Shown in pieces: positions 5,484 through 10,511 of a DNA stretch of 10,530 bases. Source of the stretch: Candidatus Wolfebacteria bacterium CG_4_10_14_0_8_um_filter_39_64 (GTDB taxonomy: Bacteria; Patescibacteriota; Minisyncoccia; UBA6257; UBA9933); assembly GCA_002784365.1 (NCBI GenBank), contig PFKY01000005.1, positions 1 through 10,530 on the forward strand. Direction: 5' to 3'. Every line of letters begins with the position of its first letter. Position 1 is the stretch's first letter. The position numbers were made by a program, and so were the translations under genes. Below the pieces are notes generated by a model. It ran no database searches, was not told the DNA's origin, and was given only the letters and a program-made list of their open reading frames with translations.

Positions 5484-5913
5484 TAATTGCTTCTTTCAAG
5501 GCGTCCAGACCCAAAACCGAGCAATGAAATTTCAGTTCCGGCAAACCGCCTAATCTTTCAATAATTTGTTGGGGTTTCAAGTTAAGGGCTTTCTTTACGG
5601 CTATGCCGCCTTTTTCTGTGACCATCACCGAGAGCATTGAGGTGGCGGAGATGGCTGAAGCGCAGCCATAGGTGCGCCATTTACAATCTTTAATTTTCTG
5701 AGTTTTAGGGTCAACTTTAATCCAAAGCGCCATTATATCGCCGCATAAGGGATTTCCGGCAATTCCTTTTCCGTCATATTGATAATTTGTTTCGTCCAGT
5801 AAAACGTTTCGGGGATGAAAAAAATGGTCCTTGACTATTCCGGTATAAAGCCAAGATTTTCCTTTATTTTTCCCAATGACATCGCCGATTTTTTTGTTTT
5901 TTTTCTTTTTCAC
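5452..5913 (-). CDS. iscU: IscU/NifU-type Fe-S cluster scaffold
   Basis: A 153-residue scaffold protein on which new Fe-S clusters are built. The three conserved cysteines are present: C57 in GNPLCGD with D59, C84 in YGCAS, and C131 in KFHCS with H130. The HPRN motif (33-36) and the C-terminal ALKEAINDYL fit the IscU/SufU family. It carries about 20 extra Lys-rich N-terminal residues and lacks the LPPVK-type chaperone-binding site after the third cysteine. The start codon is GTG, and its G belongs to the end of an inserted 130-bp element. Removing that element restores ATG in the same frame, so this start is well supported despite being rare. It follows nifS and overlaps the flavoprotein gene by 32 nt. 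Confidence 0.9.
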   Translation of the reverse strand: MKKKKNKKIGDVIGKNKGKSWLYTGIVKDHFFHPRNVLLDETNYQYDGKGIAGNPLCGDIMALWIKVDPKTQKIKDCKWRTYGCASAISATSMLSVMVTEKGGIAVKKALNLKPQQIIERLGGLPELKFHCSVLGLDALKEAINDYLKNKETK

Positions 5914-6042
5914 CCCGTTAGAAGTCTGTCTTTGTATAGCACCAAGCTAAATTCAGACAGAACTTGGTTTTTCTTTATACCCCGTTATTACCCAGCAGAA
6001 AAATTTTCAAGAAAATTTTTCTGCTAAAGACTTCTAACGGGG
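5913..6042. mobile_element. MITE-like element with 15-bp TIRs and TTCA duplication
   Basis: A 130-bp unit with perfect terminal inverted repeats CCCCGTTAGAAGTCT (5913-5927) and AGACTTCTAACGGGG (6028-6042). It is flanked by direct repeats TTCA (5909-5912 and 6043-6046), which look like a 4-bp target-site duplication. Inside are a third copy of the ACCCCGTTA motif (5979-5987), a 15-bp hairpin with a 2-nt loop (5994-6008/6011-6025), and two crossing stems (5925-5931 with 5955-5961, 5941-5946 with 5963-5968) that could form a pseudoknot. It has no coding capacity. Deleting it with one TTCA makes nifS stop and iscU start overlap as ATGA, strong evidence of insertion. Confidence 0.8.
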
Positions 6043-6043
6043 T

Positions 6044-7314: not shown

Positions 7315-7920
7315 TTATTGATATTTTTCTACAGTGAATTTATAAATTAGAATTTTTTCTTTTTGGGGATTAATTCCTCCTTTTCGGCAGGCGATAAAAA
7401 TCTGTTTCTCAATAGTATCTACGCCTTCTAAGTCCGGCAGCAAGAGACCGGTTTTGGCAACAAAATGACCGTTGAAAACCACATCTCCGGAAGGAGAAAG
7501 CGGCGCGGTTTTGACAATTATCCCATATTTTTTGGGGTCTAATTCTTTGATATCTTTCACCAATTCAGGCTCGCTTAAAATATAAACCGTATAGGAAAGC
7601 TCGGGTAATTCCTCTTTTTTAAGCGGTCCAAATCGATAATCCTCGGTGGCAGCAGCAATGGCATTATAAATTACTTCCTCTGCAATATTTTTTCTGGTCG
7701 CTAAATAAGTGCCAATACAGCCTCTCAACTCCGTTCGGGGCAAGCCCCGCAGTTCACCATCCTTGTGGTGAGTTCGTCGAACCATTTTCTCAATGGTCAC
7801 AAAAGTTCCAGCTTTTCTCTTAAGAAATCCATTGGGCAAATCTTCGGCCGAAGAAATAATTTTCCCTTCCAGGATAAAACTTTCAACAGTTGATTTAGCA
7901 AGCAAAACAAGTGGGTTCAT
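7315..7920 (-). CDS. amrA: AmmeMemoRadiSam system protein A (AMMECR1 domain)
   Basis: A 201-residue AMMECR1-domain protein. The family signature LRGCIGTY is at 65-72, followed by AATEDYRFGPLKKEEL, a strand with YTVYILSEPE, and the glycine/leucine segment GLLLPDLEGVD (about 157-167), close to the C-terminal ACRKGGI region. Biochemical function is unknown; with Memo-like and radical-SAM partners it forms a set conserved across bacteria and archaea and proposed to carry out an undefined modification. Residues of about 46-63 (starting MVRRTHHKDG) interrupt the usual short link before LRGCIG and come from a hairpin-rich repeat, duplicating the peptide ELRG. Its ATG overlaps the stop of the Memo-like gene as ATGA, so translation is coupled. 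Confidence 0.92.
   Translation of the reverse strand: MNPLVLLAKSTVESFILEGKIISSAEDLPNGFLKRKAGTFVTIEKMVRRTHHKDGELRGLPRTELRGCIGTYLATRKNIAEEVIYNAIAAATEDYRFGPLKKEELPELSYTVYILSEPELVKDIKELDPKKYGIIVKTAPLSPSGDVVFNGHFVAKTGLLLPDLEGVDTIEKQIFIACRKGGINPQKEKILIYKFTVEKYQ
7732..7785. repeat. in-frame hairpin-rich repeat insertion in the AMMECR1 gene
   Basis: About 54 bp containing GTTCG-A-CGAAC symmetry, TCACCA/TGGTGA (7754-7759/7766-7771) and CGGGGC/GCCCCG with a 2-nt loop (7736-7741/7744-7749). It adds about 18 residues directly before the conserved LRGCIG motif without breaking the frame. It contains TTCGACG...CTCA...ACAAG on the minus strand, a pattern shared with the repeat in the radical-SAM gene. Confidence 0.65.
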
Positions 7921-8567
7921 AATTTAAAATTCGCTACTAAATATCCTACGCCGAATGGGCTTTCGTAAGATAAAATTTCGGGTTGCCACGCTAAACGTGG
8001 CTTTAATCCCGCTGAGCGGGATTGCCATTCATCCAAAATTCCCAGCATAAAACAAAACGACCGCAAACCACACTCACCGGCTTCAGGATATAATTCGTCT
8101 AATTTCAAAATTGTATTTATATTTTTCTTTTTCAGGGATTCTATCAGTTTCTCGTCAAATTTCGGTCCATCAGGATGAAAACCATAAGGACCGTCCGGCC
8201 TCAAACAGTGGGATAAATCGCCACTGGCTATAATACCAACTTTTGACTTTTTGACTAATTGACTAATTGACTTGTATAGTTTTTTCCCTTCTTCAAAATA
8301 AAATTTTGGCGATTCTATTCCAATTAAATAGGTTTTAATTTCACCCTTAAAATCTTTGGCTAAAAAGAATAAGGGAACATTAAAGCCCCAGTCAGGGTGA
8401 GGAGAGGAAATTATTATTGAATCAGGCCTGGTTTTTTTTAGTTTCTCGCCTAAAAATTTTAAACTCTCAATTGTTTTTTTTACCTTTTCCCAGTCTTCTT
8501 TTGAACCAACGTCAGGCAAAATTATCGGTGGATGAGGTGAAATTGCTGCAAAAATAATTTTTAGCAT
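7917..8567 (-). CDS. amrB: AmmeMemoRadiSam system protein B (Memo-like)
   Basis: A 216-residue member of the Memo/class III extradiol dioxygenase-like fold. Candidate metal ligands are H12 in ISPHPPI, H57 in SSPHPDWG and H120 in SGDLSHCL, with the GECGLRSF segment (164-171) forming the rest of the active site region. The C-terminal LSYESPFGVGYLVA matches the family's ending. Memo-type proteins bind a metal such as iron or copper in this site; the reaction in this system is not known. Residues of about 183-195 are an extra in-frame segment between two copies of WQ, made by a two-hairpin repeat. An 8-nt tandem repeat lies in codons 99-109. It starts 1 nt after the radical-SAM stop and overlaps the AMMECR1 start by 4 nt. 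Confidence 0.9.
   Translation of the reverse strand: MLKIIFAAISPHPPIILPDVGSKEDWEKVKKTIESLKFLGEKLKKTRPDSIIISSPHPDWGFNVPLFFLAKDFKGEIKTYLIGIESPKFYFEEGKKLYKSISQLVKKSKVGIIASGDLSHCLRPDGPYGFHPDGPKFDEKLIESLKKKNINTILKLDELYPEAGECGLRSFCFMLGILDEWQSRSAGLKPRLAWQPEILSYESPFGVGYLVANFKL
7983..8021. repeat. in-frame 39-bp palindromic insertion in the Memo-like gene
   Basis: Two hairpins, GCCACG/CGTGGC (7985-7990/7996-8001) and AATCCCGC/GCGGGATT (8005-8012/8016-8023), are bounded by direct repeats TTGCCA (7983-7988 and 8022-8027). The repeat-to-repeat distance is 39 bp, exactly 13 codons, adding SRSAGLKPRLAWQ. Excision leaves LDEWQPEILSYESPFGVG, which fits the family. Confidence 0.8.
8241..8272. repeat. four tandem 8-bp units in the Memo-like gene
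   Basis: Consecutive octamers TTTTGACT, TTTTGACT, AATTGACT, AATTGACT. They encode ISQLVKKSK on the minus strand. A unit of 8 is not a multiple of 3, so copy-number change would shift the frame. Confidence 0.85.
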
Positions 8568-8568
8568 A

Positions 8569-9609
8569 TTAATTTAAAATTAAATCCAAATTTTCCCCGC
8601 ATTGTGGACATTTACCGTTTTTATCATAGCGGTGGATAATATAATTCATTCTATCAATGGCTACGGTCCCGCATTTTGGGCAAATTGTGTCTTCGCCTTT
8701 GTGGCCGGGAATATTGCCGGTATAAACGTATTTTAAACCAGCTTTTTTGCCAATTTGATAGGCCTTTTCTAAGGTTTTCACCAGTGTATCCGGCAGATTT
8801 TTTAACTGCCAGGAAATTGCTCCGGAAAATTGAGTGACGTGCCAAGGCGTTTCTTCGCCTAATTCTTTTTTGATAAAATTAGCAATGCCCTTAAAAGTTT
8901 TTTCATCATCATTCAAAGTGGGAATGACTAAAGTAGTTACTTCTACCCAAATTTTTTCTTGTCCTGAGCCGCGTCGAAGGGTTTTCATTCTTTTTAAAGT
9001 TTCTAAGACTGGCTTGAGTCGGCCGCCACAAACTTTCTGGTAGAATCCGTCATCAAAACCCTTTAAATCAACGTTGGCCGCATCTAAATAAGGAGCAATT
9101 AAATCTAAAGATTCTTTTGACTGATAACCATTAGTTACCCAATTGTTCTTTAATCTGGCTTTTTTGGCTAATTTCATCGTGTCCAAGGCGTATTCCAAAA
9201 AAATTGTCGGTTCGGTATAAGTATAAGAAATAGAAGGTGTTTTATTTTCCAAAGCCATTTTAACTATTTCTTGGGGCGATAAATCGTAAAAAGAAGAAAT
9301 CGGCTTATTGGGTTTCGGGCCCTGGGAAATATCCCAGTTTTGGCAATTTAAGCAGCGAAAATTACAGCCTACGGTAGCAACTGAGAGTGAATAACTTCCG
9401 GGTAAAAAATGAAAAAAGGGTTTTTTCTCAATCGGGTCAACATTGATTGCCACGGCTTTACCATAGACCAAAGAATAAAGTTTGCCATCTTTATTTTCCC
9501 GCACCCCGCAAATCCCTCGTTGATTATTTTCAATCACGCAATAATGAGCGCAGTTTGTACATTGAACCTTCTTGTTGGGTAATTTTTTATATAAATAAGC
9601 CTCTTTCAT
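8569..9609 (-). CDS. amrS: AmmeMemoRadiSam system radical SAM enzyme
   Basis: A 346-residue radical SAM protein. An N-terminal Cys cluster (C17, C20, C24, C34 in GICGVR) precedes the radical-SAM motif C82-NFR-C86-LN-C89, which binds the [4Fe-4S] cluster that cleaves SAM. It is followed by TYTEPTIFLEY (131-140), WVTNGY and the NVDLKGF strand. The end is a zinc-ribbon-like CPKC...CPQC (C310, C313, C334, C337). This is the architecture of the system's radical-SAM component, related to pyruvate formate-lyase-activating enzymes; its substrate is unknown. Residues of about 211-219 (LRRGSGQEK) look like an in-frame repeat insertion before WVEVTTLVIP. It is the first gene of the operon; a 17-bp tandem repeat covers its start codon and a 50-bp palindrome lies 50 bp upstream. 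Confidence 0.93.
   Translation of the reverse strand: MKEAYLYKKLPNKKVQCTNCAHYCVIENNQRGICGVRENKDGKLYSLVYGKAVAINVDPIEKKPFFHFLPGSYSLSVATVGCNFRCLNCQNWDISQGPKPNKPISSFYDLSPQEIVKMALENKTPSISYTYTEPTIFLEYALDTMKLAKKARLKNNWVTNGYQSKESLDLIAPYLDAANVDLKGFDDGFYQKVCGGRLKPVLETLKRMKTLRRGSGQEKIWVEVTTLVIPTLNDDEKTFKGIANFIKKELGEETPWHVTQFSGAISWQLKNLPDTLVKTLEKAYQIGKKAGLKYVYTGNIPGHKGEDTICPKCGTVAIDRMNYIIHRYDKNGKCPQCGENLDLILN
8958..8981. repeat. 24-bp repeat-derived in-frame insertion in the radical-SAM gene
   Basis: On the minus strand it has CCTTCGACG and CTCAGGACAAG around a GCGG centre, encoding TLRRGSGQ. The layout TTCGACG...CTCA...ACAAG matches part of the AMMECR1-gene insertion, with the closing pairs changed together: CCT/AGG here, GGT/ACC there. 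Relatives usually run from the helix into WVEVTTLVIP with fewer residues. Confidence 0.55.
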
Positions 9610-9658: not shown

Positions 9659-9708
9659 ACCACTTTACTTGTAAAGTCTACGATCGTAGACTTTACAAGT
9701 AAAGTGGT
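9659..9708. repeat. 50-bp perfect palindrome, copy 1
   Basis: Perfect dyad symmetry centred on CGATCG (9681-9686), with no spacer. Moving outward from the centre, each arm includes ACTTGTAAAGTCTACG, then TTTACC-type sequence ending in ACCAC. Each arm also folds on itself (ACTTTAC-TT-GTAAAGT, 9662-9677 and its mirror 9690-9705), so the heptamer ACTTTAC occurs four times in alternating orientation. A 10-bp palindrome TAAGCGCTTA (9650-9659) abuts it. No T-run follows, so it does not look like a terminator. It lies 49 bp upstream of the amrS ATG and 61 bp past the stop of the PaaX/Cas2-like gene. Confidence 0.95.
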
Positions 9709-9769
9709 CGTATCTTGTTTATATTTTAATATTTCTTTCAAGATTTCAATATAAAAATTTTCAAGAAAT

Positions 9770-10405
9770 TTAGGTAATTTGTTTTAGTGTGCCGGTTTTA
9801 TTGATTTCAAAAATTTCCACATATTCAACCAATTGTAATTGTTTAAAACATTCTAATAATTCTTCTGGGATTTTGATCGTCCCCACCCAAACGCTTTTTT
9901 GTAAAAATTTTAATCCTAAATTCCCTAAAACCTCTCTCAGCCAATCTCTTTTTGGTCTTTCAATTTCGGGAATATCAAAAGTCACCACGATAAATCTATT
10001 ATTTTTATTGTCTCTAAATCTTTTATCTTTAAATGATGAGGGGTCAGGTAGGGCGTTTTCTATTTTATTCTTTAAAATAATTAGACGATTCTTCCCCTTT
10101 AAAGTAAGACGAATGAGTTTTTTGTCTTTCTTCGGTATTTCTTTGATCAAACCATCTTTTTTAAGTCGATTTATCATTTCATAAAATCTTTGGCGTCGCT
10201 TCTTTTCTAAAAGAATTTTTTCTTTTTGTTTTTCTCGTTCAATTTGCCTTTGTCGTCGCTGTTTTTGTAATTTGAAGCGTTCATATTCGATTCTTAAAAC
10301 AGAAGCGCCATAACCAGTATTTAAAAATGCTGTCAGCAAATCAGCTGCATCAATGGTGGCCTCACCGATAGTTTCTAATATTTGTAAAGTTTTCTCTCCC
10401 CACAT
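9770..10405 (-). CDS. PaaX-like regulator with C-terminal Cas2-like domain
   Basis: A 211-residue protein. Residues 1-45 are a helical, weakly recognisable N terminus. Residues 43-75 form a very Arg/Lys/Gln/Glu-rich helix, probably a coiled coil. Residues 74-110 look like a winged helix (YEMINRLKKDGLI, then LIRLTLKGKNRL). Residues 137-205 are Cas2-like, with VVTFDIPE (D144 at the position of the Cas2 catalytic Asp) and LGLKFLQKSVWVG (163-175). This layout is that of PaaX-type repressors, in which the Cas2-like part is a dimer module. No CRISPR array or other cas gene is visible, so a regulator is likelier than an adaptation nuclease. No Shine-Dalgarno site precedes the ATG. Two long palindromes lie at almost equal distances on either side. 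Confidence 0.8.
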   Translation of the reverse strand: MWGEKTLQILETIGEATIDAADLLTAFLNTGYGASVLRIEYERFKLQKQRRQRQIEREKQKEKILLEKKRRQRFYEMINRLKKDGLIKEIPKKDKKLIRLTLKGKNRLIILKNKIENALPDPSSFKDKRFRDNKNNRFIVVTFDIPEIERPKRDWLREVLGNLGLKFLQKSVWVGTIKIPEELLECFKQLQLVEYVEIFEINKTGTLKQIT

Positions 10406-10465
10406 TTTCTAAATCTAATTTCTAAATATAAATAGAAATCTCTTAAAATTAATTAAAACCGATCT

Positions 10466-10511
10466 TATTCAACTTGTAAAGTCTACGATCGTAGACTTTA
10501 CAAGTTGAATA
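10466..10511. repeat. 46-bp perfect palindrome, copy 2
   Basis: Perfect dyad symmetry centred on CGATCG (10486-10491). From the centre outward it shares the whole 34-bp core with copy 1 (each half ACTTGTAAAGTCTACG plus the central base), but the outer parts differ: TATTCA here against ACCACTTT there. The outer bases changed in both arms, so symmetry is kept. It lies 60 bp upstream of the PaaX/Cas2-like ATG. The sequence between (10406-10465) is A+T-rich with no clear promoter. Confidence 0.95.

Follow-up and report, generated by a model that had tools for sequence, protein, structure and literature searches.

The closest described relatives of this locus are REPtrons, PaaX regulators and the Cas2 proteins of CRISPR. 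Two reports describe a REPtron as a RAYT or TnpA-REP gene, encoding a Y1 HUH transposase, with flanking REP palindromes and scattered REPs elsewhere (PMC3733652, PMC8266576). Both give high copy numbers for REPs (PMC3733652, PMC8266576), and the first places no REPs between divergent genes (PMC3733652). The window, meaning the whole stretch analysed here, spans contig C47 from end to end (10,530 bp); the draft genome to which it belongs amounts to 373 kb in 68 contigs. Its palindrome-bracketed gene belongs to a family that resembles REPtrons in three ways: a small gene is bracketed by gene-specific palindromes, several differently coded units occur in one genome, and lone palindromes (solos) lie elsewhere between codirectional or convergent genes, never divergent ones (0 of 17 here, a raw count). 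It differs from them in its protein, a winged helix joined to a Cas2-like domain instead of the Y1 HUH transposase that is a REPtron feature. It also differs in its palindromes, which are about 34–50 bp long with an even, CG-rich centre and carry no GTAG-type tag beside the hairpin, and in the few solos per examined genome compared with the high-copy REPs. No description of a Cas2-like gene between its own palindromes was found in the open-access literature, which is weak evidence of novelty and covers open-access texts only.

The features of the locus are collected in Table 1. The initial annotation had reported two long perfect palindromes without spacer around one gene, sharing a 34-bp core and lying 61 bp from its stop and 60 bp from its start; coordinates, arms (25/25 and 23/23), core and gaps were all reproduced exactly. 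It had also described the outer arms as unlike between the copies yet symmetric. This holds in the window (arm positions 18–25 and 18–23), but over the whole family symmetry is no higher than background from about position 22 outward, and chance must account for part of the longest outer extensions. First-order Markov surrogates of the window (n = 200) contained no zero-spacer arm longer than 12, with a mean of 7.4. A chance origin is ruled out by these arm lengths and by the rarity of such palindromes at the distant control sites described below.

Table 1. Positions of the gene, its domains and the two palindromes in the window.
Feature	Position	Strand	Remarks
Downstream palindrome	9659..9708		50 bp, perfect, zero spacer; core 9667-9700
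211-aa gene; product with N-terminal helices, a winged helix (~residues 66-118) and a Cas2-like domain (137-205)	9770..10405	-	
Winged-helix part, residues ~66-118	10052..10210	-	likely reads the palindrome address
PaaX_M / Cas2-like domain, residues 137-205	9791..9997	-	profile matches
Asp144 codon	9974..9976	-	invariant in 70/70 homologues; presumed place of the Cas2 active-site Asp
Upstream palindrome	10466..10511		46 bp, perfect, zero spacer; core 10472-10505; also on C52
Promoter-like pair overlapping the upstream palindrome	10452..10480	-	TTTACA 10475-10480, TTTAAT 10452-10457, spacer 17

The last 80 bp of C47 are repeated exactly on contig C52, where the sequence continues; the right palindrome, 19 bp from the end of C47, falls within this overlap and is thus backed by two contigs. 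The genome shows the core at five places, but the overlap makes one copy appear twice. Four distinct copies therefore exist, the two flanking the gene and two imperfect solos on C46 and C6. The C46 solo adjoins the 3' end of a gene that we take to be recG-like, and the C6 solo precedes tRNA-Asp. A search of 100 relatives for the innermost 24 bp of this core, allowing up to one mismatch, gave no hit. The promoter-like pair has 10/12 consensus matches and is absent from the list of a stricter scan; at this one locus alone, a promoter overlapping the upstream palindrome is only suggestive.

The window protein matched Pfam PaaX_M (6.8e-14) and, barely past the cut-off, the NCBIfam cas2 model (1.7e-5), with a Cas2-like fold in the C-terminal domain of Table 1. 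In alignment A1, which covers 56 of 70 high-scoring loci, PaaX_M was present in all 56 members, TIGR01573 (Cas2) was matched by 53/56 and TIGR02277 (the NCBIfam PaaX regulator model) by 17/56. The top Foldseek row was E. coli PaaX 8a39, with a weak E of 0.009. The N- and C-terminal Pfam domains of PaaX were not among the matches of the window protein and the 56 members, which comprised only PaaX_M/Cas2 profiles and assorted HTH models; the same search detected all three domains in a Rhodococcus PaaX control. Asp144, whose place we take to be that of the Cas2 active-site Asp, is absent from both PaaX regulators aligned for comparison, and its invariance is compatible with a nuclease activity. 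A Y1_Tnp domain gave no Pfam match in the window protein or the 56 members. Cas1 was found in 0/6 searched genomes of homologue carriers (our own genome being 85% complete), while the search was positive in 9/14 controls. The family shares the Cas2-like domain with PaaX regulators but lacks PaaX_N and PaaX_C and keeps an Asp that the two compared regulators lack; it shares the fold with CRISPR Cas2 but carries a winged helix and a palindrome bracket, with no Cas1 in those six genomes. We do not class the family as REPtron, PaaX regulator or Cas2, because a defining feature of each was looked for and was absent. Among PADLOC models only Cas2 matched, and PHROGs returned one weak match to a transcription regulator. 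As for other candidates, phages contained no match to the window gene, plasmids contained only three partial PaaX-like matches, and comparison with known RNAs gave only sub-threshold microRNA-type and sRNA matches.

Homologues occurred in 101 of 200 related genomes (own genome included), at 1–8 per genome, and the relatives in named records belong to Candidatus Wolfebacteria, Liptonbacteria and other Paceibacteria. Palindromes were scored by a strict test, with a centre of CG[AG][CT]CG and at least 10 of 14 further pairs. Among the 70 loci, which are the high-scoring matches out of a longer set, 56 had a palindrome on both sides, 12 on one side and 2 on neither; for the 80 named loci (the best 80 of 92 relatives) these numbers were 57, 16 and 7, respectively. 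Merging the two sets gave 110 distinct loci in Patescibacteria, a group of very small bacteria that are for the most part uncultured, with 79, 23 and 8. Only 2 of 132 gene-distant centres in the 70-locus set passed the test, both resembling a flanking palindrome, and 7 of 627 comparable distant sites passed in the 80 named loci. Several loci that failed carry variant centres (CAATTG or GCGATAGC) or are cut by contig ends, as seen in a free-centre rescan; the counts quoted here are those of the strict test. The palindromes are thus tied to this gene family and not scattered without link (79 + 23 of 110 loci against 7/627 distant sites), and the proposed co-occurrence of homologues with long palindromes holds for all but 8 of the 110 loci by the strict test. 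Two loci (L149 and L157) in a MAG labelled Nanoarchaeota are units with nearly identical address, which may reflect misbinning or transfer. Near a contig end, one locus listed twice (L088 = L126) carries a perfect palindrome whose two arms measure 60 bp or more each (at least 120 bp in all), probably an assembly fold-back.

Outward from the centre, each arm consists of CG[AG] (set by the search itself), an A (0.77), tolerant positions 5–8 and an address at positions 9–17. The centre is CGATCG-like and common to the family; the address varies between elements and agrees between both palindromes of one gene. Positions 11–16 are the same and paired in 71–77 of 79 elements. Address similarity was 0.92 within an element (79 elements), compared with 0.30–0.34 between proteins of less than 45% identity (4803 pairs), and was 0.76–0.85 above 60%. 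The family logo, drawn to position 28, showed no conserved base outside the palindrome. Selection for unlike addresses within a genome was unsupported: at matched protein identity, with 54 within-genome pairs and 90 labelled loci, the within/between similarities were 0.33/0.32, 0.32/0.35, 0.31/0.38 and 0.78/0.78.

At 139 element-positions (4–17) the two palindromes of one gene are unlike, and at 48 of these both copies are still paired. In locus L033 the two palindromes have unlike middles, each perfectly symmetric. A solo behind a gene that we take from its sequence to be recA can be compared at an orthologous site between two species of one genus; it shows several mirrored changes and one unmirrored change, next to a nearly identical flank. 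From the paired differences, L033 and the mirrored changes in this solo, we infer that palindrome symmetry is maintained or regenerated, and the earlier proposal that symmetry itself is kept up gains support.

The recurring bracket with differing codes suggests an undescribed, possibly selfish, genetic unit. We rate as evenly balanced the reading that the gene and its two palindromes form a REPtron-like unit of a widespread Patescibacteria family, built on a different kind of protein that would bind its palindromes as a dimer and drive their dispersal. The protein, probably a dimer, would read the element-specific half-site (arm positions ~9–17) through its winged helix, and the common CG-rich centre would be read perhaps through the Cas2-like domain. 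Bound to the upstream palindrome, it would block its own promoter. The two palindromes would delimit the unit, and units and lone palindromes would be gained, lost and duplicated.

In the complete genome CP011209.1, 7 of 1561 CGRYCG sites are palindromic at 14/14 pairs and an eighth reaches 11/14. Four of the seven bracket its two family genes, and the other three are solos, each of one resident gene's type. Two of these three solos lie between convergent genes, and two directly follow an ordinary-looking terminator. In four genomes of this genus, one palindrome type occurs in 3, 3, 7 and 9 copies (at most 2 mismatches), and a reversed control gave 0. Altogether 20 solos were examined; among the 17 with two neighbours, the flanking genes are codirectional at 12, convergent at 5 and divergent at 0. 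These are raw counts in which three sites are counted in two sister genomes and five overlap a mechanical ORF. In the codirectional group, 7 of 12 lie closer to where the next gene begins than to where the previous one stops, and by placement alone solos are therefore compatible with operators. By eye, on the GC skew of G017 and G052, no clear clustering at origin or terminus was seen of the kind known for parS or matS.

Gain and loss were visible at several sites. The gap behind the presumed recA holds no such palindrome in G017, a solo in G020 and in G021, and a full unit with another address in G018. One G020 solo is absent from G021, where the surrounding sequence has changed too. One chromosomal site, at which the two alternate within a genus, carries a family unit in G001 and G021 and a Y1_Tnp gene in G017 and G020. 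Two solos of G033 (L281 and L285) have a 111-bp block in common from the left palindrome edge and differ beyond it, as if the palindrome marked a breakpoint. The units L119 and L122 show 89% DNA identity and have unlike surroundings, in two species whose flanks are 70–76% identical; both come under one sample label, and more than 100 bp at the ends of their contigs are identical, so a chimeric assembly is possible. The protein tree (69 of 70 loci; L083 was left out for an in-frame stop) contains starred within-genome sister pairs, namely L037/L058, L026/L056, L073/L075, L081/L085 and L061/L062. In a separate observation, two palindromes at L271 (G021:C3:210173-210890) bracket an NT5C-like nucleotidase gene in place of a family gene, and the matching region of G017 has no such palindrome.

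The alternative in the initial annotation that gene and palindromes make up a small mobile unit was upheld in part, by the lone copies, the gain and loss and the within-genome sister copies; the exact junction was not found. At three unit loci and four solo sites neither a base-exact empty site nor a target duplication was found, and absence was seen at the level of the gene or site. The symmetric but unlike outer arms in the window would argue against a recent att-type crossing-over between a circular unit and a solo. For dispersal speak the solos, their presence and absence, the sister pairs, the site shared with Y1_Tnp and the absence from divergent pairs; against it speak the tree, which mostly follows hosts, the positions of many solos, which could suit operators, and the missing exact junction. 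We consider the case for dispersal to stand about level with the case against it.

The main rival is a resident autorepressor that acts through a pair of strong dyad operators (possibly looping) and a few further sites, passes mainly by vertical descent and is not itself mobile; we regard it as a serious but clearly lesser possibility. Its best evidence lies in the promoters. Between the upstream palindrome and the gene, a −10-like hexamer was present in 50/91 loci; the three remaining palindrome sides had one in 16/91, 13/90 and 14/90, and shuffles (n = 200) gave 21.3 ± 3.3. Two-hexamer promoters with the first box in or beside the upstream palindrome reached a score of at least 9 of 12 in 46/90 loci, against 14/90, 19/88 and 13/88 on the other sides. 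A dyad overlapping the gene's own promoter is statistically present across the family, and this overlap with a likely promoter in about half of the loci makes autoregulation via the upstream palindrome probable. The suggestion that the palindromes are operators of the encoded protein is supported to this extent, and by the matched addresses. Occlusion of the promoter is the simplest reading of the upstream copy and leaves the downstream copy unexplained.

The family history also fits an inherited regulator. Mapping host families on the protein tree required 23 label changes, where the least possible is 13 and the shuffled mean 41; the tree mostly follows host families. Some units have flanks in common across genera, and the 7/12 codirectional solos nearer a gene start than a gene end and the 17/56 matches to the PaaX regulator model point the same way. 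Other observations sit badly with an autorepressor. The downstream palindrome is present with its neighbouring gene in either orientation (34 codirectional, 32 convergent). Convergent genes flank five of the 17 solos and divergent genes flank none, and solos show no promoter excess (score of at least 9 in 11/40 directions). The several differently coded copies per genome, the site shared with Y1_Tnp and the changes mirrored over arms of about 20 bp exceed an ordinary operator's needs.

Within the REPtron-like reading, a more specific mechanism can be proposed, which we think rather unlikely. In it, a class of selfish elements would encode a single protein, a winged-helix enzyme with a Cas2 fold, which would cut or copy the element's own palindrome, through a hairpin or cruciform at CG[AG][TC]CG, and so mobilise units and solos. 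Fold-back copying would rewrite both arms together, which would produce the mirrored changes and leave each element with its own address. If true, this would be a Cas2-type mobilisation system that works without Cas1, and a present-day counterpart of the ancestors from which CRISPR adaptation arose. If the units move by whatever route, they would be a REPtron-like element on a Cas2 fold, bearing on the entry of Cas2 into CRISPR and on repeats in minimal genomes. If they stay put, they would be a family of autoregulators whose private operators diverge fast, and from which the rules of winged-helix specificity could be learnt as from a natural library. Either way these Cas2-like genes become a testable system: each has a private palindromic code and lone target copies, and in many of them a promoter overlaps one of the palindromes.

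A further possibility, which we consider improbable, treats the palindromes as REP-like repeats that the cells' Y1 (RAYT-type) transposases spread in trans, with the Cas2-like gene as a passenger or as a regulator that adopted them. Y1_Tnp genes occur in 6/7 genomes searched, and a matching palindrome pair stands on both sides at 4/9 scanned Y1 loci, with locus-specific palindromes (G020:C1:301932-302165, G017:C1:103218-103451, G017 604988-605209 and L371). Among the other five, three have none, one has a single palindrome and the locus in the window's own genome has two unlike ones. At the chromosomal site shared with the Cas2-like units, the palindromes around the Y1_Tnp gene measure 27–37 bp and have a centre of 1 base; one of them contains a mismatch. 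The Y1 palindromes have centres of 1 or 3 bases and sequences unlike those of the Cas2-like family, and the address goes with the Cas2-like gene, all of which disfavours spread in trans.

Genome G052 (GC 0.25; 640 of 680 kb scanned) bears on the same question. It gave no family match, 0/39 palindromic CGRYCG sites and no Y1_Tnp match, yet it has palindrome units of another type. These are perfect palindromes of a different family (AACATTCCAACATTCT...) around a stand-alone gene for a 98-aa winged-helix protein (G052:C1:546611-546976), with solos of the same type at 127423, 553121 and 587549. Among 30 loci of its relatives (L335–L364), 17 had palindromes on both sides, 10 on one and 3 on neither; their distant flanks together contained 12 palindromes. 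In a pairwise comparison the 98-aa protein showed no significant similarity to the window protein. These units share with the Cas2-like family a gene bracketed by long perfect palindromes, plus solos; they differ in the palindrome family and in lacking the Cas2-like domain, so the bracket needs no nuclease, a point against the REPtron-like reading. Palindrome-bracketed single genes are a wider pattern in these bacteria, with at least three different proteins.

That the protein-bound palindromes are transcription insulators or terminators between genes, insulating the gene on both sides, is very improbable: all 17 solos lie between codirectional or convergent genes and, on the plus strand, the window's upstream palindrome is scored as a terminator-like stem, but the upstream palindrome carries the unit's own likely promoter in about half of the loci, and at two CP011209.1 solos what looks like an ordinary terminator stands directly before the palindrome.

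Two minor observations concern the remainder of the window. Genes for AMMECR1, LigB-fold and radical SAM proteins, a trio that we take to be AmmeMemoRadiSam, stand next to one another at 7315-9609, and the radical SAM gene starts 49 bp away from the downstream palindrome. Farther away, between the NifU-like and aminotransferase genes, an inverted pair (ACCCCGTTAGAAGTCT at 5912-5927 and AGACTTCTAACGGGGT at 6028-6043) surrounds a nested hairpin.
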